NCBI RefSeq assembly: GCF_030012215.1
Contig: NZ_JASCXX010000003.1
Location: 186,001 to 250,000 of the forward strand
Direction: 5' to 3'
Length of the DNA stretch: 64,000 bases
Source: Anaerobaca lacustris
GTDB lineage: Bacteria; Planctomycetota; Phycisphaerae; Sedimentisphaerales; Anaerobacaceae
Part shown: positions 6,479 to 16,695 of the stretch, piece after piece
Position numbering within the stretch: position 1 is the first letter of the stretch
Layout: the number at the start of each line of letters is the position of its first letter
Notes under the pieces: model-generated
Told to the model about the DNA's origin: nothing
Database searches by the model: none
What the model saw: the letters and a program-made list of their open reading frames with translations, nothing else
Made by a program: the position numbers and the translations under genes

Positions 6479-7555
6479 TCATCGTGCGGCCTTCTTGCCC
6501 TGTCGGAGCCGGTAGACCATCGCCAGCACTTCCGCCACGGCCACGTACAACGATTCGGGGATGCGCTGGCCCGGCTTGACCGCGGCGTAGATCGCCCGGG
6601 CCACCTCAGGCCGCCGGACGATCGGAACGCCGTGGGAGCGTGCGATCTTGATGATCTTCTGGGCCATATGGTCGGCGCCCTTGGCCAACAGAACGGGGGC
6701 GTCCATGGTCGCCGCCTCATAGCGCAACGCCACGGCCACGTGCGTCGGGTTCACCAGAATGACGCTGGCCTTGGGCACCTCCTGGATCAGACGCTTCATC
6801 GACATTTCGATCTGAATCCGGCGGATCCGGCTCTTGACCTCCGGCGAGCCATCGCTGTCCTTACGCTCCTGTTTGACCTCCTGCCGGGTCATCTTCAGTT
6901 CGTGGATGTACTGCCATTTCTGGTAGAGCGTATCGGCCAGTCCCAGGATGATCACAGCGATGCCGACGCGAATCCCAAGACCGAACGTCATCGACGCGAT
7001 GGAACCGATGAGCTGGGACGACCATGCCCAGCGCAGCGCGGCCATGGCCTCCAGCTTGTCTCTAAGGTAGAACCAGACGATTACACCGACGATCAACAGC
7101 TTGGCGATCTCGGCGAGCAGACGGACCAGGGTCCGTGGGTTGGCGGCTCTCTGGATCGCGGTGGCGGGATTGATGGCGTCCCACTTCAACTGAATGGCCT
7201 GTGGGCTGAACGTCAGGCCCCCGATGACAATGCTCGTGGCGATCCCGGCCACACTGATGACCGCGAGGACGGGCAGCATGACGAGGAGGGCGTCGATGAT
7301 GTTCGCGTTCATATAGGCGGCGAAGATCTGCGGGTTGGCCAAGGGGCCGATCTGGCCGGACGCGCTCGTTTCGACCTGCCCCTTGAACCACTGGAACAGA
7401 CCGGGCGCCAGCAGGGCCAGACTCAGAAACAATGCGAGGAGCGTGACCGCGGCCCCCATGTCCTGGCTCTGGGGGACCTGCCCTTTCTCACGGGCTTTGC
7501 CCAGCTTTCGCGAGGTCGGTTGTTCTGTCTTTTCGGCGGCGGGTTTCTCGGCCAT
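6479..7555 (-). CDS. flhB: Flagellar export switch protein FlhB
   Basis: FlhB is an inner-membrane component of the flagellar type III export gate. It switches substrate specificity from rod/hook to filament after self-cleavage. The 358-residue protein has an N-terminal basic stretch (TSRKLGKAREKGQVPQS), four hydrophobic segments between about 30 and 215, and a cytoplasmic domain. The autocleavage motif NPTH is at residues 269-272 (VILVNPTHVAVALRYE), the same location as in well-studied FlhB proteins. It is the last gene of the minus-strand flagellar operon, 66 bp after fliR, and has no obvious strong ribosome-binding site. FlhA, its usual partner, is not in the window. Confidence 0.96.
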   Translation of the reverse strand: MAEKPAAEKTEQPTSRKLGKAREKGQVPQSQDMGAAVTLLALFLSLALLAPGLFQWFKGQVETSASGQIGPLANPQIFAAYMNANIIDALLVMLPVLAVISVAGIATSIVIGGLTFSPQAIQLKWDAINPATAIQRAANPRTLVRLLAEIAKLLIVGVIVWFYLRDKLEAMAALRWAWSSQLIGSIASMTFGLGIRVGIAVIILGLADTLYQKWQYIHELKMTRQEVKQERKDSDGSPEVKSRIRRIQIEMSMKRLIQEVPKASVILVNPTHVAVALRYEAATMDAPVLLAKGADHMAQKIIKIARSHGVPIVRRPEVARAIYAAVKPGQRIPESLYVAVAEVLAMVYRLRQGKKAAR

Positions 7556-7621
7556 CGTTTTGATCGATTATGGATTACTGACAATCGGAGAGACAAGACG
7601 CATCCACAATCAACAATCCTT

Positions 7622-8383
7622 CTAAAGCGGTAGCAGTTGCGCCATCCAGTCGGCCATTTCGGTTACGTACCCGTGGATGAACGGCAGGAACATTGCGGCC
7701 ATGATCAACCCCAGGCCGATTCGTGCCGGCATGCTGATGAAGAGGATGTTCATCTCCGGAACCAGTCGGGCCAGAAGGGCCAGGGCCACCATGAGGACCA
7801 TGAACGCCGCCAGCATCGGGGCGGCCAGACGCAGGCTGGCGATCAACATGGTCGAGCCGGCGGTGAGCACGCCGCCGGTCAGGGTCTGGATGGTCGGGGT
7901 GGTCCCTATGGGAAAGGCCGCAAAGCTCTTGGACAGGACCAGGAGAAGCAGGTGGTGGCCGTTGGCGCAGAGAAACAGCAGGACGAAGATCATCTCAAGC
8001 AGACCGCCAAGCGGCTGGGCGCCTTCGCCGGTCAGCGGGTCGAGAATCTCGGCCATCGTCAATCCCATCTGGCGTTCAACGATCTGTCCGCTGAGCCTCA
8101 CGACGGAGAACAACGAGCTGACGATCAGTCCCAGGGCCAGGCCATATGTGGCTTCGCCCGCCAACAGCAACAGCGCCTGCACGGTGTCACGCAGGCTGTC
8201 GGAGGCGACGGCGTCGATCCCGATCGCCTTCGGAACGACGCCGGCGAAGAATACCGAGACCAGTACGGTCGCCGCCACTTTGACCCGAACCGGGATCGCC
8301 TGCCATCCGAAGACCGGCACGACCAGGAAGAACGCCGAGACGCGGGTCAGGACCAGGGCGAAGCCGAGCAGTGTTTCGAGCAT
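7622..8383 (-). CDS. fliR: Flagellar export gate protein FliR
   Basis: FliR is an integral membrane protein that assembles with FliP and FliQ into the helical core of the flagellar export gate. The 253-residue product begins MLETLLGFALVLTRVSAF and shows a run of long hydrophobic segments through to LGLIMAAMFLPFIHG, matching the usual length and hydrophobicity of FliR. The order fliP-fliQ-fliR-flhB is the classical one. It starts at an ATG 15 bp downstream of the fliQ stop, consistent with one transcript. Confidence 0.94.
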   Translation of the reverse strand: MLETLLGFALVLTRVSAFFLVVPVFGWQAIPVRVKVAATVLVSVFFAGVVPKAIGIDAVASDSLRDTVQALLLLAGEATYGLALGLIVSSLFSVVRLSGQIVERQMGLTMAEILDPLTGEGAQPLGGLLEMIFVLLFLCANGHHLLLLVLSKSFAAFPIGTTPTIQTLTGGVLTAGSTMLIASLRLAAPMLAAFMVLMVALALLARLVPEMNILFISMPARIGLGLIMAAMFLPFIHGYVTEMADWMAQLLPL

Positions 8384-8398
8384 CCGGGGCCCCCGCGA

Positions 8399-8668
8399 TC
8401 AGTGCCTGATGTTCTCGATCTGGGCGAAGATTTCGGCCGTGAATCGCAACGCGATCTGGAGCATCCAACTGCCAAATGCCATGCCGACTACGGAGACGGC
8501 CAGCAGCTTCGGAACGATGGTCAGGGTCATGTCCCGGATGGACGTGATCGCCTGGAGCAGAGTGATGATGATGCCCACGGCCATGCACGTAATCAGGATT
8601 GGCGCCGACAGAAGCAGCGCGGTTTCCAGCGTATGCCTTCCCAGATAAAGCACGAAACTGCTATCCAT
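8399..8668 (-). CDS. fliQ: Flagellar export gate protein FliQ
   Basis: A small membrane protein of 89 residues with two hydrophobic helices (about 15-40 and 50-78), the normal size and topology for FliQ. FliQ wraps around the FliP-FliR core of the export gate in the inner membrane. The motif LLSAPILITCMAVGIIITLL with the following QAITSIRDMTL segment is typical. It lies between fliP (32 bp away) and fliR (15 bp away). Confidence 0.94.
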   Translation of the reverse strand: MDSSFVLYLGRHTLETALLLSAPILITCMAVGIIITLLQAITSIRDMTLTIVPKLLAVSVVGMAFGSWMLQIALRFTAEIFAQIENIRH

Positions 8669-8700
8669 AGATTTCCATCCTCTCTATCACGAGGCGGCCG

Positions 8701-9543
8701 TCATTGAAATCCGAGACTGAGGCTCTTGGCCAGCAATCCCCACCCATCGACCAGGATGAACAGGATCAGCTTGAACGGCAGCGAGATCATCACGGGGGGG
8801 AGCATCATCATTCCCGCGCTGAGCAGCACGCTGGCGATGACCATGTCGATCAGCAGGAACGGGATGAACAGCAGGCAGCCGATCTCAAAGGCGGTTCGGA
8901 ACTCGCTGATGATGAAGGCCGGGATGACGATGTGAAGCGGAATGTCCATTGCCGTGGCGGGGGGGGAGGCCTTGGCCATCTCAAGAAAGAGCGCCAGATC
9001 GCTTCGGCGGCTCTGACGCAACATGAACTCCTTGAGGCACCCGGCTGCGCTGTCCGTCGCCGCGGCGAAACTGATCTGGTCGGCCAGGTAGGGCTGGATC
9101 GCCTCCGTGTTGACCTTGGAGTAGGTCGGCGCCATCGTATAGAGTGTCAGAAAGAGGGCCAGACCGATGACGGCGACTGTCGGCGGTATGGTCTGTGTGC
9201 TCAGGGCCCGACGGACGAACGACAGCACGATCACGATTCGCGTGAAGGAGGTCGTCATGACCAGCAAGCTGGGCAGGATTGCCAGGCCGCTGAAGATGAT
9301 GACCAGCCTGACGGGCGTGGACCATTCCTTGCCCTCGGTCTCCTGGGCAGTTGCTTTGTCAAGAAGGGTTGCCAGATCGCCGAGGCTCGGGACATTGCCC
9401 GAGGGCGAAATATCCATCACATCGGATTCCGTCTCGGGCAACTCCAGAGGCGCGATTGGGGTGATGATCTGGCCGTATGAGACGGCGCTCATCGCCAGCC
9501 CGACCAGCGATAGGGCGATCAGCCTGATTCGGGTCGAAGCCAT
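8701..9543 (-). CDS. fliP: Flagellar export gate protein FliP
   Basis: FliP forms the pentameric core of the flagellar export gate. The product has 280 residues. Residues 1-24 look like a cleavable signal peptide (basic start, hydrophobic core, VSYGQ), as is usual for FliP. The body has FliP signatures, including VMTTSFTRIVIVLSFVRRAL and, near the C-terminus, SAGMMMLPPVMISLPFKLIL. Its ATG abuts the fliO stop codon with no gap, which suggests coupled translation. The pairing with fliO, fliQ and fliR supports the call. Confidence 0.96.
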   Translation of the reverse strand: MASTRIRLIALSLVGLAMSAVSYGQIITPIAPLELPETESDVMDISPSGNVPSLGDLATLLDKATAQETEGKEWSTPVRLVIIFSGLAILPSLLVMTTSFTRIVIVLSFVRRALSTQTIPPTVAVIGLALFLTLYTMAPTYSKVNTEAIQPYLADQISFAAATDSAAGCLKEFMLRQSRRSDLALFLEMAKASPPATAMDIPLHIVIPAFIISEFRTAFEIGCLLFIPFLLIDMVIASVLLSAGMMMLPPVMISLPFKLILFILVDGWGLLAKSLSLGFQ

Positions 9544-10029
9544 CTACGCACTCACCGAATTGTTGATGTCCTGCTTGGACAGGTCCAGCCAGGCATCGCC
9601 GACGTCGGCCAGCGTGACAATGCTCTCGTTGGTGCTGCCGATCAACAGCCTCTGGCCGCCGATCTCCACGAGATGGAGCGCCTTGCGCGGTCCGAGGTAG
9701 GTGGTCTCGATGACCCGAATCTCCTTGCCGCACGCCTTTGTGACGCGGGGAAGCACCTTCTTGGACAGGTACAGGGCCCCGACGCCCAGACCGACCACCA
9801 GCAGGATCGAGAGCATCATCCGGAAGAACAGCTCGGTGCTCCCAAGACTCCCCGATGGTTCGGAACCCTGGTGGGTCAGACTGGGCCCGTCGAACACGGT
9901 GCGCTGCGCCTGGGGTGTAGGGGCGGCCCCCGCTTCCCGATCGGTCGCGCGGGCGGCCAACCCGACCAGGCCGCCGGCAACGACGACCACGGCGAACATC
10001 GCTGCGATCTTCTTTCTTCTGTCGCTCAC
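9544..10029 (-). CDS. fliO: Flagellar biosynthesis protein FliO
   Basis: FliO is a small membrane protein that helps assemble the FliP ring. The 161-residue call starts at GTG (VSDRRKKIAAMFAV), which has a GAGG-like element just upstream. A first hydrophobic segment follows at about 9-24, and a second at about 62-84 (MMLSILLVVGLGVGALYLSKKVLP). The C-terminal domain has the FliO-type pattern IRVIETTYLGPRKALHLVEI and RLLIGST. The 208 bp between this start and the preceding motB-like gene is the largest gap within the downstream half of the operon and holds nothing I recognise, so the start is less certain than the identity. Confidence 0.85.
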   Translation of the reverse strand: MSDRRKKIAAMFAVVVVAGGLVGLAARATDREAGAAPTPQAQRTVFDGPSLTHQGSEPSGSLGSTELFFRMMLSILLVVGLGVGALYLSKKVLPRVTKACGKEIRVIETTYLGPRKALHLVEIGGQRLLIGSTNESIVTLADVGDAWLDLSKQDINNSVSA

Positions 10030-10237
10030 ACGAACCTCGAAATCCCTGTCCTGCCGTCCCGACGAACGCCGGGATTCAGGTTTCGGATGTACATATGGTG
10101 CCCGATGAGGATGTGCAAACGGCGTGCCGAAACCCTTATGTTCGTCAGGAGGGCTTCCTGGGGGCGCCAGGGCGGATGCGAGCGGCGTTGCGCCTGAAGA
10201 ATGGCCCCGCTGTCGAAAAACTTGACACGGGCTTCGG

Positions 10238-11008
10238 TCAGGAGCCGGATCGCAACATGGCGATGAGGATCTGCGACCGTCCGGGGTCAGGGCGATCCTG
10301 CCCGGCCCAGTGGCCGCCCGGACCGGCGCCCCAGCACAGGATACGCCATGGTGAGCGATCTGCAGCCGGCGGCGTTCCAGAGGGCCGGCTGGCGTGGCGT
10401 GCCAGTTCCTCTCGGAGGAACCGGGCCACAGCTTCCGCCCGGCGGGCCGAGAGCGTCCACTGCTGCATTTGGGTCGCTTCGTCGCCGGCCAGCCCCAGCA
10501 CGTACAGCGTACAGGTCTCCGCACGGAGGTTCTGTTGCAGGTCGATGCAGTATTTCTCTAGATATCGGCGGGATTCGTCGCTGAGAAGGGCCTCTCCCGG
10601 GCTGAATTTGATGGGCGTGATCGAGAAGTTGAGGCGGTGCCCGACGATTTGAGACGGCAGCGTGGTCGTGGATTGGCGGAGGCGCTCGAAGGCCTGACGG
10701 AGCATCTCACGGTACTCGTCGAGCGTTCGATCCTCGGTCACCTGAGGGTCCGTCGTGAGGTATCGGGTGATGGGGGCGCCCAAGTCTGCCTTTGCCTCGC
10801 TGCCCAGAAGGACGCCAAGCCCGCAGAGATGGATCGATTCCCAGAACGAATCGCGACCCTGATTGAAGAGGTCCGGGTCTTGCACCTGAGCCAGTGTCAG
10901 CAGCAGCACGAAGAACGTCAGCAACAACGTCACCATATCGGAGAAGGTGACGATGTAGGCCGGGACCTTCTGTTTTTCTTCCTGTGGCGGCTGGCTGCGC
11001 GATCTCAA
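10238..11008 (-). CDS. Second MotB-like stator protein with OmpA-type domain
   Basis: This 256-residue protein has one N-terminal membrane helix, PAYIVTFSDMVTLLLTFFVL, carrying an acidic residue (Asp24) at the position of the ion-binding Asp of MotB. A C-terminal OmpA-like peptidoglycan-binding region spans about 100-245 (LNFSITPIKFSPGEALL, LSARRAEAVARFLREEL). It begins with TTG overlapping the motB stop (TTGA), so translation is probably coupled. Its C-terminal 45 residues are Gly/Pro/Arg-rich and less typical. It could be a second B subunit sharing MotA with the MotB encoded upstream, or an accessory periplasmic anchor. Which one cannot be read from sequence. Confidence 0.8.
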   Translation of the reverse strand: MRSRSQPPQEEKQKVPAYIVTFSDMVTLLLTFFVLLLTLAQVQDPDLFNQGRDSFWESIHLCGLGVLLGSEAKADLGAPITRYLTTDPQVTEDRTLDEYREMLRQAFERLRQSTTTLPSQIVGHRLNFSITPIKFSPGEALLSDESRRYLEKYCIDLQQNLRAETCTLYVLGLAGDEATQMQQWTLSARRAEAVARFLREELARHASRPSGTPPAADRSPWRILCWGAGPGGHWAGQDRPDPGRSQILIAMLRSGS

Positions 11009-11709
11009 TGGTACGTGCTCCGTTCCAGAACGACGATCTCGATTACCCGTTGGGCCTTCGGGTTGATGGCCGACAGGCCGCTGTGTCGAAGCGTCTCGGC
11101 ATCCACTGTCGCCGTCGCGGTGATGCTCAATCGCGTCTTCTCGATCCCCTGACCGTCGGTCAGGAGTTGAGCGATCGTCCAGGCCCTCCTCAATCCGATT
11201 TCATCAGAGCTGTGCGGACCGGCCTCCATCGCGTGCTCGCCGACGATCACCCGGTTGGATACGGCCTTCAGCAACGTCGCCACGTCGGCCATGATCCGAC
11301 GCCCGTGACCGGTGGTACGGACGCCGCGCCCCAGAAAGACGTCTTCCGACGGTACCAGAAAGACCTTCTGGTCCTGGAAGTCCATGAAGTCCAGGCTCGT
11401 GCCGGGATTCGATTCGTACTGGCCGTCGACGGTCGGCTTCTCACTGCCGTCTTCTGGGTCCTGGTCGTAGATGATGCGAGGGGTGGGCAGAAACGCGTCG
11501 TCGATGGGGGTCAAACGCAGTCCGATCGAGGACAGTCCCTCCGAGAACGCCGACTGCATCTTTGGGAAGACCTTGTTATCAAAGGAAGAGAAGCTCAGCA
11601 GCAGAACGAAGAACGTCAGCAGAAGGGTCATACAGTCACTGAACGTGACCATCCATTCCGGAGCGCCGGCATCCTCGTCCAACGGTCTCTGTCTGCCTTT
11701 GGGGGCCAT
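11005..11709 (-). CDS. motB: Flagellar motor stator protein MotB
   Basis: MotB anchors the stator to peptidoglycan and, with MotA, forms the ion channel that drives rotation. The 234-residue protein has a single membrane helix (about 19-42, EWMVTFSDCMTLLLTFFVLL) with the channel Asp at residue 25, then a plug/linker region. An OmpA-like domain follows (about 120-230) with the RRAWTIAQLL segment in the usual peptidoglycan-binding position. The ATG at 11709 overlaps the motA TGA (ATGA), showing translational coupling. A second MotB-like gene follows immediately with a TTGA overlap. Confidence 0.92.
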   Translation of the reverse strand: MAPKGRQRPLDEDAGAPEWMVTFSDCMTLLLTFFVLLLSFSSFDNKVFPKMQSAFSEGLSSIGLRLTPIDDAFLPTPRIIYDQDPEDGSEKPTVDGQYESNPGTSLDFMDFQDQKVFLVPSEDVFLGRGVRTTGHGRRIMADVATLLKAVSNRVIVGEHAMEAGPHSSDEIGLRRAWTIAQLLTDGQGIEKTRLSITATATVDAETLRHSGLSAINPKAQRVIEIVVLERSTYH

Positions 11710-12479
11710 CAGACGGTCGCCTTGATCTCCTTGCGCCGACTGTGCGAGACGAACGCCTGCATTCGCTCCCTGACGATGGTCGGGTTGTCGCCCTGGGCGA
11801 CGGAGCAGACGCCTTCCAGGATCATCTCCATGGCCAGCGATTCTTCCTTTGAGTAGATGCCGAGTTTGCCGGCCAGAGGGATGAAGACCAGGTTGGCGGC
11901 AAAGGCCCCATAGAACGTCGTCAGGAGGGCCACGGCCATGCCCTGTCCGATCTGGTCGGGCGAGCTGAGGTTTCGCAGCATCTGTACGAGACCGATGAGG
12001 GTCCCGATCATGCCGAACGCCGGGGCGGCGGCCCCCATGAATTCCAGGATCTTCTTGCCGCCGGCGTGACGTTCCTGGAGATACTGAATCTCCGGCTCCA
12101 ACATGTCTCGGATGGCCTCGGCATCCTGTCCGTCCACGAGCAACTGAAGGCCCTTGGCGAAAAAGTGGTCGCTGAGCTTGCTGATCTCCGGCTCCAGGGC
12201 CAGCGTTCCGTCCCGACGATTGATCGCGGCGAAGTTGACCATCTTCTGGACCACCTCGGACTGGCCGGGGATCCTGGCGACGATGGTCTTCTTGATGATG
12301 GAAAAGATGCTGAGGAATTGGGGCAGCGAGAAATGGATCATCGTCGCACAGAGCATCCCGCCGATCGTGATGCACAGCGAGGGGACGTGGAAGAACATGG
12401 CGGCGCCCCCGCCCATGACGATGGCTCCGACGACGACGACGAAGCCCAGCAGTGTTCCGATGATGGTTGCGATGTCCAT
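11709..12479 (-). CDS. motA: Flagellar motor stator protein MotA
   Basis: MotA is the force-generating stator ring around MotB. The 256-residue protein has four hydrophobic segments (about 5-25, 33-52, 150-172, 182-205). The cytoplasmic loop carries the charged motif RRDGTLALEPE (Arg88/89, Glu96/98) that interacts with FliG. The helices after the loop contain the conserved prolines (APAFGMIGTLIGL and NLVFIPLAGKL). It is in the standard motA-motB order and lies 7 bp downstream of the motE-like gene. Whether the motor is H+ or Na+ driven cannot be told from these residues. Confidence 0.95.
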   Translation of the reverse strand: MDIATIIGTLLGFVVVVGAIVMGGGAAMFFHVPSLCITIGGMLCATMIHFSLPQFLSIFSIIKKTIVARIPGQSEVVQKMVNFAAINRRDGTLALEPEISKLSDHFFAKGLQLLVDGQDAEAIRDMLEPEIQYLQERHAGGKKILEFMGAAAPAFGMIGTLIGLVQMLRNLSSPDQIGQGMAVALLTTFYGAFAANLVFIPLAGKLGIYSKEESLAMEMILEGVCSVAQGDNPTIVRERMQAFVSHSRRKEIKATV

Positions 12480-12486
12480 GGACGCG

Positions 12487-13200
12487 TTATCCTCCCGTGA
12501 CCTGTTTGAGCTTCTGGCTCAGCAGGGCGGCCAGAGACGGCTCGCTGGTGGCCAGTTCGGCCAGGACCTTGGCCTTGGTCCGATCCTGCATGAAGAAGAG
12601 GATCTTGACGGCGTCGTCGATATTGCTTGCGCGACCGGTGCCGCCGTTCTTCGACTGCGTCGTGGCCATGTTGCTGAGGATTTCGCTGGCCCGAACGGGG
12701 TCCATCTTGTCGTATGCGGCGGCGATGGCCAGCAGGTTGGTGCGTTCGGCTTGTTCGACCTCCACGCGCGTCTTCTGAAGCAGATCTCGCTCGTTCCTCA
12801 AGGTCGCCACGGTGGCGGCCAGGTCGACGCGCAGGTCGTTCAATGTGGCGATGTCGTCCTGCAGTGTCTGCTGGGCGACAAGCAAACGCTGCCTCTCCTG
12901 GTCCAGGCTATGGGTCTTCGCGTTGTATTCCTGGATCTTCTCGCGGACCTCGAAAATAAGCTCTTTGAGTTGTTCTTCGGTCATCGTGCGGGCGGTGGTG
13001 CCCTCGTGGGCCGGTGGCAGGGTGGGCGTCAGGGCCGAAGGCAGGCCGCCGGCGGGCGATCGGGCCTCTGCGGCGCCTTCGGTCGTCGCCTCCGGCGCCC
13101 CTCGAACGGGCGCCGGTCGAGTGAACCACCCGGCGCCAAAGGCACCGAGGAAACTGACCACTCCCGCAGCGACGCTGATAAGGAGAAGCTTCTTGCTCAC
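12487..13200 (-). CDS. MotE-like flagellar chaperone/MgtE-N-type protein
   Basis: The product is a single-pass membrane protein of 237 residues with a signal-anchor at about 2-25 (KKLLLISVAAGVVSFLGAFG), a Pro/Ala-rich linker, a long coiled coil (about 80-165, rich in E, K, Q and L heptads) and a C-terminal MgtE-N/FliG-like helical domain (MDPVRASEILSNMATT, AKVLAELA). MotE proteins of this design stabilise the export chaperone/stator region in other bacteria. The GTG at 13200 was preferred over a TTG at 13215 because GGGAG sits about 8 bases upstream of it. It lies between fliJ and motA. Confidence 0.8.
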   Translation of the reverse strand: MSKKLLLISVAAGVVSFLGAFGAGWFTRPAPVRGAPEATTEGAAEARSPAGGLPSALTPTLPPAHEGTTARTMTEEQLKELIFEVREKIQEYNAKTHSLDQERQRLLVAQQTLQDDIATLNDLRVDLAATVATLRNERDLLQKTRVEVEQAERTNLLAIAAAYDKMDPVRASEILSNMATTQSKNGGTGRASNIDDAVKILFFMQDRTKAKVLAELATSEPSLAALLSQKLKQVTGG

Positions 13201-13249
13201 AGTGCGTGCTCCCAATTCGTGCCCCTTCGCCGGGGCACAGAATACTGTC

Positions 13250-13702
13250 TCACAATCTCATACTCTCGTTTCGTGCAAAGGCGATGGTGGTTCTGTCATC
13301 CATTTCTTTTTGTTCGAGTTTTTCCTGCTCCTGGATGAATCGGACCTTGGCCTCGGTCCGCAGCTTCTCCAGGGCCTCTTTGAACCGCCTGGCAGCCAGG
13401 ACCTCGGCGGTCTTGTGCTTTCGCTGTGTCTCCAGTTCCTCGATTTCGGCGTTCAACCGTCGAATGAGTTGATCGTCGATGTCGGCGTTCCTGAGAAAGA
13501 ACTCCTGGGCCCCCAGACGTCCAGCCGACCGATCGCGGGTGATCTCGGCCGCGATCTCGCGCAGGATGCGCCGACGCATGAGCAGCTCGCTTCGCCGGAT
13601 GGCGAGCGTCTCCGTCAGGCGGAACAGCTCCATGCGTTTGAGCTGCTCTTCCTTGGTCTTGATGTCCAGCACCTTCTGTAAGCGCCATACGAATCGTCTC
13701 AT
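13250..13702 (-). CDS. fliJ: Flagellar export coiled-coil protein FliJ
   Basis: This 150-residue protein is almost entirely charged helix. It begins MRRFVWRLQKVLDIKTKEEQ, the characteristic FliJ N-terminus, then runs as an antiparallel-type coiled coil. FliJ is the central stalk that couples the FliI ATPase ring to the export gate FlhA. Its size and its position directly after fliI match the family. Sequence conservation in FliJ is low, so the call rests on the N-terminal motif, the coiled coil and gene order. Confidence 0.88.
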   Translation of the reverse strand: MRRFVWRLQKVLDIKTKEEQLKRMELFRLTETLAIRRSELLMRRRILREIAAEITRDRSAGRLGAQEFFLRNADIDDQLIRRLNAEIEELETQRKHKTAEVLAARRFKEALEKLRTEAKVRFIQEQEKLEQKEMDDRTTIAFARNESMRL

Positions 13703-13715
13703 GGCAATATCGGCT

Positions 13716-15080
13716 CTATCCTCGATGGCCGTCGGGACTGAGCAACTGCTCCCACGTCCGTCGGATGTCCGCCAACTGCCGGACCGTCTCGTCGAACGGC
13801 GTCCTCTGACGGACCGGTTGCACGAGGAAATCGTTGATGCGGTCGATCAGGCTGATCGCGCCGTCGATCCGCCGGTTGCTGCCGGGCGAGAACGCCCCGA
13901 TGTTGATCAGGTCTTCTGCGTCGGCATAGGTTGCGTAGATCTCCTTGAGTTTCTGGGCGGCCGTCCGATGCTCGTCGCTTACCACCGCCGACATCAGACG
14001 GCTGACACTCTGTGCAATATCTACGGCCGGGTAGTGCCCTCGGCCCGCCAGCTTTCGCGACAGGACGATGTGTCCGTCCAACAGGCTTCGCGCGCTGTCG
14101 GCGACGGGGTCGGTCAGGTCGTCGTTCTCCACCAGCACGGTCAGAATCCCCGTGATGCTGCCGGCCTCGGAGCAGCCGAGGCGCTCGATCAGCCGGGGCA
14201 TCAGCGCGAAAACGCTGGGGCAATAGCCCTTCGTGGCGGGCGGCTCACCAGCGGCCAGGCCGATCTCCCGCTGGGCTTGTGCGAACCGCGTCAACGAATC
14301 CATCATGAACAGGACGTTCCGGGCCCTGTCTCGGAAGTACTCGGCGATGGTGACGGCCACGAAGGCTGCCTTGACCCGCTGAATGGGCGGGACGTCCGAC
14401 GTGGCGACCACGACCACGCTGCGGGCCAGTCCCTCAGGCCCCAGGTTCTCTTCGAGAAACTCCCGGACCTCACGACCGCGTTCGCCAATCAGCGCCACGA
14501 CGTTGACGGCGGCGTCGCTGCCGTTGGCGATGTCGCCCAGCAGAACGCTCTTGCCGACCCCGCTGCCGGCGAAGATCCCCACGCGCTGGCCTTGGGCGCA
14601 GGTCAGGATCCCGTCGATCGAACGGATGCCAAGTGCAAGCGGTTTCGTGATCTTCTCGCGACTCATCGGCGGCGGACTGCTGACGTCCAGCGGTCTCTTC
14701 TCCAGACCGGCCAGAGGGCCTTTGTTGTCGATCGGCTCGCCCAGACCGTTCAGGACGCGACCCAGGATGCCAGGGCCCAGCATGATGTGTCGGGGTGTGG
14801 TCCGCGTCGTTACGATGTCGCCCGGCGAGACACCCTCGATGTGCTCCAAAGGCAACAGGATGACGTGATCGTGACGGAAGCCGACGACTTCGGCCAGGAC
14901 GCGCCGGTCGGGGCCGATGTGAATGCCGCACAGTTCACCCAGGCCGATGACCGGACCGGCCGACTCGATGGTGGAGCCCGAAACGCGTACGACGTAACCC
15001 TGGCAGCTCACAGGCTCTACCGTCTCGAGGGCCGAGTGGTACTTGTCGAAATCGATGGTGGGACAGTTGGTGTCGATCAT
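13716..15080 (-). CDS. fliI: Flagellum-specific export ATPase FliI
   Basis: FliI is the hexameric ATPase of the flagellar type III export apparatus, related to the F1 beta subunit. The 454-residue product has an N-terminal beta-barrel (about 20-100), the Walker A motif AGSGVGKS at 171-178, and a nucleotide-binding core. That core contains the Walker B-like NVLFMMDSLTRFAQAQREI segment and EPPATKGYCPSVFA. The C-terminal helical domain includes YPAVDIAQSVSRLM. Length and motifs fit full-length FliI. It is flanked by fliH (3 bp upstream) and fliJ (13 bp downstream). Confidence 0.97.
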   Translation of the reverse strand: MIDTNCPTIDFDKYHSALETVEPVSCQGYVVRVSGSTIESAGPVIGLGELCGIHIGPDRRVLAEVVGFRHDHVILLPLEHIEGVSPGDIVTTRTTPRHIMLGPGILGRVLNGLGEPIDNKGPLAGLEKRPLDVSSPPPMSREKITKPLALGIRSIDGILTCAQGQRVGIFAGSGVGKSVLLGDIANGSDAAVNVVALIGERGREVREFLEENLGPEGLARSVVVVATSDVPPIQRVKAAFVAVTIAEYFRDRARNVLFMMDSLTRFAQAQREIGLAAGEPPATKGYCPSVFALMPRLIERLGCSEAGSITGILTVLVENDDLTDPVADSARSLLDGHIVLSRKLAGRGHYPAVDIAQSVSRLMSAVVSDEHRTAAQKLKEIYATYADAEDLINIGAFSPGSNRRIDGAISLIDRINDFLVQPVRQRTPFDETVRQLADIRRTWEQLLSPDGHRG

Positions 15081-15083
15081 GGA

Positions 15084-15686
15084 TTATTGCGCTCTCTCAA
15101 GTGCTTCTCCGATGCGTGCGAGATGTTCCTCGACGAACGATTTGACGATGCCTTTGGGGGTCTCCACCAGGCAGTCGGCGCGGGCGATGGACCAGTCCGC
15201 GACGAGGTCCAGTTCGGCGAATTGGCTGTCGGGGTTCTCCTGCTGGAACCGCTGGCAGGCGGCCAGGTCTTCGGGGTTCAGGCGGACCACGAGGTTCTGA
15301 CGGGCGGGCGCGCGTTTCAGCACCTCTTCGACGATGGTCTGAATGTCGTACTCGCCGTTCTCGATTCTCGGCGCCAGGATCTTCCTGGCAATCTCCACGG
15401 CCAGCCTGGCGATATCGCCACGATGATGGGCGATGGTCTGCTGATGCAGGTCATTCAACCTGGTGGCGAGCGTGTTGACCGTCTGCACCAATTGCACCAG
15501 GGTCGCGGTCTGTTGTTTGACGGCCTCCGACGGTTCCGGCGGGCCGGCCGACGCCGCACTGGGCCGCTCCGTCTCCCGTTCCATCTGTGTCGAGGGACCG
15601 TGCGCCGGGGCCTCGTGGCCCGGCGCTTCGACGACGCGAAGTCCTGCCACAGGTCTCGCAAGACGGATTGTCAATGCCTCGGTCAT
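15084..15686 (-). CDS. fliH: Flagellar export regulator FliH
   Basis: FliH binds and restrains the FliI ATPase and links it to the C-ring. The 200-residue protein has an unstructured N-terminus rich in Pro, Glu and Ala. A coiled-coil segment follows (about 55-90). The C-terminal FliH/HrpE-type domain contains EIARKILAPRIENGEYDIQT and LVVRLNPEDLAACQ. It lies 4 bp from the fliG stop and 3 bp upstream of fliI, the usual order. Confidence 0.9.
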   Translation of the reverse strand: MTEALTIRLARPVAGLRVVEAPGHEAPAHGPSTQMERETERPSAASAGPPEPSEAVKQQTATLVQLVQTVNTLATRLNDLHQQTIAHHRGDIARLAVEIARKILAPRIENGEYDIQTIVEEVLKRAPARQNLVVRLNPEDLAACQRFQQENPDSQFAELDLVADWSIARADCLVETPKGIVKSFVEEHLARIGEALERAQ

Positions 15687-15690
15687 CCTT

Positions 15691-16695
15691 CTACTCTTCC
15701 AGGAAGGTCAATTCCCCGTTGCGGTTGAGTTCCCGCAGCGCGTTGACGATTCGCTCTCGCGCCTCGCGGACGTCTTCCTTCTTCGGCGCCGACATCAGAG
15801 ACGCTTCTTCGTTCACCATCGCCGCCGCACGCTCGGAGATGTTCGACTTGATCTTGTTGGCGATCTCCTCCGGGCTCTCGTGCAGGGCCAGCGCCAGTTG
15901 TCGCTCGTCGATGCCGCGCAGGGCCTGCTGAAGCGAGCGGTCGCCCACCTGCGGCAGATCGTCCCAGATCACCATGAGGTTCATCACCTTCTCCTTCGCG
16001 TCGCTGTCCTTCTGTTCGATGGCCTCCAGGACACCGTCGCGGACCTCCTTGTCCAGATTGCGCACGATGATGGCGACCTTGCGAAGTGATTCCTCCGGCG
16101 GGGCCTGGACGGCGCTGCCGATCTGCTGCGTCGATCCAAGTCCCTCGATGCGTTTGCGTACCATTCGAGCGATGCTGGCTTTGGCCTCCGGTGTGACGCT
16201 GCCGATGGCCGTCATGCGGCTGATCGCGCTGACCCGCATGCCGTCGCCCAGGCGTCCGAGAACCTCGGAGCCTTTCTTCGGGGGCAACTCCGACAGGACG
16301 ACCGCGACGGCCTGGGGGTGTTCGGTTTCGAGCACCGTCGCCAGCTTCTGCTGGTCGGCCGAACGAATCGTCATGAACGGATCGCGCTTCTGAAGGAGGT
16401 CTTGGATCTCCTGTTGGACCTGTTCGGCCTTGTCCTCGCCCACGGTGTTCCTGAGGACCTCGCGCAGGAAGTTCTTGAACTGGAACCCGGATTCGTTCTC
16501 CAGCGACTGGCAGAACTGTCGGGCGACCTCGGCAGTCTGCTTGGCGTTGCGAAACCCGGACGCGTCGAGATAGCTCAGCTCGACGGCCAGATCCTGGACC
16601 ATTCTGGGGTCCACGCCTCTGAGCAGCTCGGCGGCGGTGGCCACGTCGAGGCTGGTCAGCAGAAGGGCGGCTTTCTGTTTTCCGGTCAGTGCCAC
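15691..16695 (-). CDS. fliG: Flagellar motor switch protein FliG
   Basis: FliG is the rotor protein on which the MotA stator exerts torque. It sits on the MS ring made by FliF. The 334-residue product starts at GTG (MALTGKQKAALLL). The middle domain has the EHPQ motif (ETEHPQAVAVVLSELP). The C-terminal domain carries the charged motor helix GDRSLQQALRGIDERQLALA, with Arg and Asp residues in torque positions. Length is normal. It is flanked by fliF and fliH. Partner switch proteins FliM and FliN are not in this window. Confidence 0.97.
   Translation of the reverse strand: MALTGKQKAALLLTSLDVATAAELLRGVDPRMVQDLAVELSYLDASGFRNAKQTAEVARQFCQSLENESGFQFKNFLREVLRNTVGEDKAEQVQQEIQDLLQKRDPFMTIRSADQQKLATVLETEHPQAVAVVLSELPPKKGSEVLGRLGDGMRVSAISRMTAIGSVTPEAKASIARMVRKRIEGLGSTQQIGSAVQAPPEESLRKVAIIVRNLDKEVRDGVLEAIEQKDSDAKEKVMNLMVIWDDLPQVGDRSLQQALRGIDERQLALALHESPEEIANKIKSNISERAAAMVNEEASLMSAPKKEDVREARERIVNALRELNRNGELTFLEE

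Follow-up and report, generated by a model that had tools for sequence, protein, structure and literature searches.

Stator systems with one ring gene and two axle-type genes

MotB is usually regarded as a homodimer whose two Asp sites are equal, and the canonical MotAB and PomAB stators, of 5:2 composition, take this homodimer from a single B gene. A ring subunit accompanied by two paralogous axle subunits is found in the TonB systems of Xanthomonas and other bacteria encoded as exbB-exbD1-exbD2. The AglQ and AglS proteins of Myxococcus xanthus are of the ExbD/TolR type and are not known to have an OmpA domain. They belong to the AglRQS gliding motor, which combines one MotA-like with two MotB-like subunits (PMC9389320, PMC9120999); whether they form hetero- or homodimers is termed unknown in one source (PMC9389320), and the idea that each could be one of two coupled subunits is voiced in the other (PMC9120999). 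Among flagellar stators, the genes motA, motB1 and motB2 of Aquifex aeolicus were reported in a single operon (Takekawa 2015, PMC4525482), with 97% identity between the TM/N-terminal parts of both MotBs and 23% between their periplasmic parts. The full-length stators of A. aeolicus were non-functional in E. coli, and each of the MotB N-termini, once fused to a periplasmic part from E. coli, allowed slight spreading alone with MotA, which speaks against a strict heterodimer requirement in this bacterium; the word heterodimer is absent from the main text of that paper (PMC4525482).

A broad survey of MotAB proteins assigned the B subunits by their nearness to A, and its main text does not contain the phrase 'two motB' (PMC12505986). 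As for the Planctomycetota, no earlier mention of a MotB pair was found in the open-licence literature to the extent that its text was accessible, and MotB is absent from the main text of a planctomycete genome paper. The planctomycete locus described here resembles that of Aquifex in having one motA and two motB genes with similar TM parts and dissimilar periplasmic parts, a likeness of layout that does not imply descent from the same duplication. It also shares its subunit count with AglR-AglQ-AglS and its subunit layout with exbB-exbD1-exbD2, which differ from it as a non-flagellar gliding motor and a non-flagellar transport energizer, respectively. The planctomycete pair is a widespread arrangement with precedents in Aquifex and in the Myxococcus AglRQS motor, so that the original prediction made from this DNA, which considered a mixed B1/B2 stator unusual, has to be tempered by both of them and by the recurrence of the pair in Planctomycetota.

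The stator locus of Anaerobaca lacustris

The window analysed in this work is a stretch of 64,000 nucleotides from Anaerobaca lacustris (contig NZ_JASCXX010000003.1, positions 186,001 to 250,000), in which the stator genes lie inside a flagellar operon with the following features:

13250-13702, minus strand: FliJ, upstream
13716-15080, minus strand: FliI, upstream
15084-15686, minus strand: FliH, upstream
15691-16695, minus strand: FliG, upstream (upstream operon block, 12487..16695)
12487-13215, minus strand: upstream coiled-coil protein
11709..12479, minus strand: motA, stator A subunit, 256 aa, ATG start
11005..11709, minus strand: motB1, 234 aa, ATG start, TM helix and divergent OmpA-like periplasmic domain
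11635..11637, minus strand: codon of the MotB1 channel Asp25, counted from the ATG at 11709
11005..11008, minus strand: TTGA overlap of the motB1 stop and the motB2 start, 4 nt
10238..11008, minus strand: motB2, 256 aa, TTG start, TM helix and OmpA-like domain with LSxxRA
10937..10939, minus strand: codon of the MotB2 channel Asp24, counted from the TTG at 11008
ends at 9544, minus strand: FliO, downstream, start uncertain (the longest ORF extends into motB2)
8701-9543, minus strand: FliP, downstream
8399-8668, minus strand: FliQ, downstream
7622-8383, minus strand: FliR, downstream
6479-7555, minus strand: FlhB, downstream (downstream operon block, 6479..10237)

The operon order is FliG, FliH, FliI, FliJ, the coiled-coil protein, motA, motB1, motB2, FliO, FliP, FliQ, FliR and FlhB. 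The TTGA overlap of four nucleotides formerly described between motB1 and motB2 is indeed present, whereas the motA/motB1 junction is not an ATGA but a TGATG with 1 nt in common. We infer translational coupling from the 4-nt overlap, which also suggests that MotB1 and MotB2 could be made in equal amounts.

MotA carries a PF01618 domain (E 5.8e-31), with MotA_N under its cut-off in Pfam, and its top NCBIfam match is the PomA model (5.7e-75, under the cut-off of that model); this MotA_ExbB domain, together with a flagellar context between the FliJ-FliG and the FliO-FlhB genes, assigns it to the MotA/PomA family. Both B proteins have the MotB_plug (PF13677) TM segment with a channel Asp that is characteristic of the MotB family (E 1.1e-15 and 57.4 bits for MotB1, E 3.9e-11 and 42.8 bits for MotB2, with a cut-off of 24), and the Asp sits in VTFSD in either protein, at residues 25 and 24 exactly as anticipated. 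The OmpA-like region announced for both remains under the Pfam cut-off of 27.2 bits, slightly so in MotB2 (E 9e-6, 26.4 bits) and more clearly in MotB1 (E 0.0029, 18.3 bits), though the AlphaFold monomers (mean pLDDT 76.0 and pTM 0.52 for MotB1, 75.8 and 0.55 for MotB2) match periplasmic domains of the OmpA/MotB type. In Foldseek searches against the PDB, the best match of the MotB1 monomer was 3td5 (E 1.7e-6), with MotS 9ljl (3.0e-6) and PomB 3wpw (1.3e-5) also matched, and the best one of MotB2 was 4rha (E 1.9e-7), with H. pylori MotB 3s0h at 8.2e-6. An OmpA-like fold of both periplasmic domains is supported by these predicted models. Otherwise the two proteins are as divergent as had been noticed, with a BLASTP alignment limited to some 59 N-terminal residues, 26/59 of them identical (44%).

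The signature GHTD...NRRVEI marks peptidoglycan binding. Its GHTD and NRRVEI elements, typical of canonical domains, are either absent from the two MotBs of the window or changed there, and the canonical NRRVEI end is missing from the MotB2 consensus; in two examples from outside the class (L153 and L159), MotB1 retains EGH and NRRVE and MotB2 is devoid of NRRVE. All of 57 MotB2 proteins carry the Arg of the LSxxRA motif, and among 55 MotB1 proteins it is conserved to at least 90%. Such differences in periplasmic elements would fit a division of labour between the domains of MotB1 and MotB2. Compared with the canonical MotAB/PomAB stator, the locus keeps a ring subunit of the MotA/PomA type, a MotB_plug TM segment with Asp and a predicted OmpA-like fold, but neither of its MotBs has the full signature, and two old paralogues are found in place of a single B gene that forms a homodimer.

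In the genome of A. lacustris (5.73 Mb, 98% complete), a MotB_plug search with E up to 1 gave exactly two matches, both at the 10238-11709 locus. Out of four PF01618 matches, one is at the locus and three are on other contigs, one of these next to the sole ExbD match of the genome, and motA is the only PF01618 gene adjoining MotB genes. Two complete A/B systems, as in dual-stator bacteria, were discarded in this way, both MotB_plug matches lying at one locus with one motA. The layout is of the Aquifex type, with the order motA-motB-motB in one operon and no further motA to accompany the extra motB.

Occurrence of the MotB pair

A MotB_plug match was detected in 46 of the 61 genomes of the genus, family and order, A. 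lacustris included. Family f5 of this order has a single MotB in each of its six matched genomes; in the rest of the order, at least two MotBs are present in 39 of the 40 MotB-bearing genomes (again including A. lacustris), and the one exception (G031) shows a single match near a contig end, with a piece of MotB2 opening another contig. In one of the 39 (G017) the MotBs lie on two contigs. The single MotBs of family f5 (L096-L099 and L115) are of another type, with VTYGDMM or VTFGDMM, and perhaps correspond to a replaced stator.

A draw over the whole class gave MotB_plug matches in 144 of 198 genomes. Families f16 and f17 had at least two MotBs in every matched genome (15/15 and 2/2), and most other families of the class one; in L088, L089 and L090, from other families with two matches, a single MotB was found beside motA. 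When the phylum was searched with a MotB2 profile at 1e-20, matches came from 37 of 342 genomes, including 30 from outside the class, and at least two MotB_plug matches occurred in 30/30 of the latter, a pairing that is selected because these genomes were picked by the MotB2 profile. The unselected phylum draw gave MotB_plug matches in 203 of 342 genomes, and among the matches listed there were one, two or, in one genome, four each, many planctomycetes having one MotB or two and some pairs being far apart. Altogether, the arrangement of one motA and two motB genes recurs in many Planctomycetota, more broadly than one window could show. Most of the named relatives belong to Sedimentisphaerales, Phycisphaerae and other Planctomycetota, and a few records are from Desulfuromusa, Desulfovibrio and Nitrospirae. 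A Desulfovibrio MAG (L259), whose genome holds four MotB_plug matches, has a motA-motB-motB tandem with Asp in both B proteins, so similar pairs also occur outside Planctomycetota. Two genomes carry two motA-motB1-motB2 sets each: G041 (L063, contig 8) and G506, where both sets are complete and on different contigs (L163, L164).

Gene order and origin of the pair

We extracted 125 MotB pairs from 123 genomes and named their members by position, MotB1 upstream and MotB2 downstream, so that their relative order is definitional. A motA gene was visible in 124 of the 125 pairs, and it was upstream of both MotBs and on the same strand in 124/124, which makes the order motA-motB-motB more than a matter of chance. 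Taking, among the candidate motB2 starts, the one closest to the stop of motB1, a choice that favours short distances, an exact 4-nt overlap was found in 87/125 pairs and a distance within 20 nt in 118/125. In one pair (L177, genome G171), MotB2 runs over overlapping reading frames, either by an assembly frameshift or in a broken gene; one of its three overlapping ORFs was omitted by hand. The MotB1 proteins of L037 and L059, whose pattern was unmatched, are absent from one alignment (A2) but counted among the 125, and the single MotBs L090 and L105 are absent from another (A3), L090 being unmatched again, which leaves 22 of 23 singles counted.

A tree was built with 62 of the 125 pairs, hand-picked to span the groups, and 22 of the 23 single MotBs, with the long rows L165, L166 and L111 flagged. 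The 62 MotB1, 62 MotB2 and 22 single MotBs each fell on their own side of a branch, so that position and kind agree in 62/62 pairs, with SH-aLRT supports, by a quick method, of 64 for MotB1, 98 for MotB2 and 98 for the single MotBs; the weak MotB1 value accompanies the presence of the long row L165 in the set. Both groups span planctomycete classes, and the duplication thus predates the split of the classes sampled. To judge from this tree, MotB1 and MotB2 are the outcome of one old duplication. The evidence that the two positions represent two kinds of protein is the 62-pair tree and, for the first 57 in-class pairs, profile scores; outside the class of the window the MotB1 and MotB2 profiles separate the proteins poorly.

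Likeness of the transmembrane segments within lineages

When the pairs were grouped into 39 clusters based on MotA, the TM identity between MotB1 and MotB2 was 0.514 within clusters vs 0.463 across them, a value that none of 20000 permutations reached. With 17 clusters the figures were 0.470 and 0.425 (3/20000 permutations), with 7 clusters 0.435 and 0.414 (708/20000), and with 2 clusters no signal was seen (9985/20000). A periplasmic control gave 3235, 4178 and 343 of 20000 permutations at 39, 17 and 7 clusters. The within-lineage likeness of MotB1 and MotB2 sits mainly in the TM segment, and it would fit gene conversion as well as adaptation to a shared MotA pore; by itself, it does not separate heterodimers from two homodimers. 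The same codon encodes 60 of the 94 identical residues in the four most alike pairs, compared with 734/1513 over all 90 pairs, and some TM parts of the MotB genes may have undergone gene conversion. A complementary Met/Ile-Val pattern of MotB1 vs MotB2 two residues after the Asp (within-pair identity of 0.08 vs 0.35 expected) was set aside as a signal of pairing, since it looks like one split between the class of the window and other classes. In L047, L056, L061 and L134 the TM identity between MotB1 and MotB2 reaches 82-86%, and three of these pairs have APLWIISFADMISLLMAFFVML common to both MotBs, the MotB1 of L134 differing by one residue.

Loss of the channel Asp in MotB2

The channel Asp is present in 125/125 MotB1 and in 119/125 MotB2 proteins. 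It is replaced by Thr in the MotB2 of L049, by Ala in L054, L116, L117 and L129, and by Ser in L165. On a tree of MotB2 periplasmic parts (without L079, which is cut at a contig start), these replacements amount to four changes, at least three of which are forced by strong branches; the loss is always in MotB2, which with only 4 events gives a sign test of 0.125. In genus g24 (L054, L116 and L117), where the measurement was made, the Asp-less MotB2 shows dN of 0.015-0.037, dS of 0.117-0.196 and dN/dS of 0.13-0.19, below the value of about 0.50-0.56 of its MotB1 partner. By this measure, the Asp-less MotB2 of the genus is under purifying selection. In three of the Asp-less genomes (G021, G028 and G513) the pair itself accounts for the only two MotB_plug matches, and another one (G268) has an extra MotB-like fragment at a contig end. 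A homodimer of an Asp-less MotB2 would contain no channel acid, so in such genomes MotB2 must act either with MotB1 or outside the channel.

The MotB1 proteins of L054, L116, L117 and L129, which represent two Asp-less lineages on the tree, carry Phe at Asp+13 (0/119 among Asp-bearing pairs) and Met at Asp+5 (1/119), and those of L049 and L165 have neither. Among the members of the window's family, without L165, no well-conserved MotA column is altered in the L054 group and in L129 alike. The MotA of L129 is nearest to that of L120, whose MotB2 retains the Asp, and the periplasmic part of its MotB1 is about equally near to the L054 group (0.60-0.61) and to L120 (0.57). We give little weight to the accompanying MotB1 changes for this nearness to both candidate relatives; recombination may connect L129 to the L054 group, and this would merge two events of Asp loss into one.

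A proposed heterodimeric axle and its alternatives

On balance, the comparative data make it somewhat probable that the locus encodes an obligate MotA5-MotB1-MotB2 stator with a heterodimeric axle. In such a machine (5:1:1), a ring of five MotA subunits would enclose an axle of one MotB1 and one MotB2, with no MotB homodimer, and both TM helices would share one MotA pore, where ions would use the Asp of MotB1 and the Asp of MotB2 alternately. The two diverged periplasmic domains would provide two different attachments of the stator, to the cell wall or to another envelope ring, and the lineages devoid of the MotB2 Asp would run on the Asp of MotB1 alone. We prefer this heterodimeric axle because it would explain at once the gene linkage, the overlap, the tracking of the TM segments and the persistence of an Asp-less MotB2 whose own homodimer would have no channel acid, as well as the near-obligate pairing in 39/40 genomes of the order outside f5. 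The mixed B1/B2 stator of the original prediction stands as the best-supported reading, by pairing, overlap, TM segments and Asp-less MotB2, although it is arrived at indirectly. Some observations weigh against it: the TM signal weakens at coarser clusters, with a periplasmic signal at 7 clusters too; separate homodimers with the same MotA, or gene conversion, would also produce TM likeness; the MotB1 changes to Phe and Met are missing from L049 and L165, and L129 may be a recombinant; the Asp loss restricted to MotB2 is a matter of just four events; and each A. aeolicus MotB N-terminus gave some spreading by itself, which argues against an obligate heterodimer (PMC4525482).

Such chimeras, in which either MotB N-terminus works weakly alone (PMC4525482), would rather agree with two alternative homodimeric stators, MotA5-(MotB1)2 and MotA5-(MotB2)2, sharing one MotA and used for different loads, ions or surfaces, in a manner resembling dual stators but exchanging the B subunit only. 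The TM motif kept by both MotBs, mostly with its Asp, and the strong differences in the remainder of the proteins are in line with such an exchange, which would explain the unlike periplasmic domains. We find it fairly unlikely in view of the Asp-less MotB2 retained in several lineages, with purifying selection measured in a genus, and in G021, G028 and G513 the homodimer of MotB2 would be left without channel acid; the presence of at least two MotBs in 39/40 MotB-bearing genomes, the remaining one being fragmentary, and the equal amounts suggested by the overlap point in the same direction. Alternatively, MotB1 alone could be the axle and MotB2 a non-conducting accessory anchor or regulator derived from a MotB (scaffold, assembly or plug factor). 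Losses of the Asp in 6/125 MotB2, vs its presence in all MotB1, and a consensus without the canonical NRRVEI end would suit an accessory protein, but 119/125 MotB2 retain both the Asp and the pore-helix motif, and a TM segment that tracks the one of MotB1 would be needless outside the pore; we judge this accessory role unlikely, and a purely cell-wall role of MotB2 would seem unlikely as well. That MotB2 is a duplicate in decay or an artefact of assembly, as the sequence divergence, the sub-threshold OmpA score and the apparently broken frame of L177 might suggest, is extremely improbable and in practice ruled out by the spread of MotB2 next to MotB1 (125 pairs in 123 genomes), by the age and support (98) of its group and by a dN/dS well below 1 even without the Asp.

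Returning to the heterodimeric axle, it is conceivable, though rather doubtful, that a large part of the Planctomycetota uses asymmetric 5:1:1 stators, some lineages working on a single Asp and perhaps with 5 ions rather than 10 for each turn of MotA. In the model of Santiveri, the ring turns only with both Asp sites protonated (PMC9389320), so that a stator with a single Asp would have to work in another way; a literature search for mixed one-Asp MotB dimers turned up only this review. If true, a single-Asp stator would break the two-site alternating model. The unlike halves of the axle could then be tagged, mutated and counted one at a time, and nature itself would offer a test of whether one Asp per stator suffices.

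The coiled-coil protein encoded at 12487-13215 on the minus strand, which adjoins motA upstream, has an N-terminal membrane segment as judged by eye. A Pfam search found no family above its cut-off for this protein, and it bears a weak, sub-threshold likeness (E 0.0034) to FlbB, a collar protein of spirochaetes; we presume that it is possibly a stator-recruiting or MotE-like factor.
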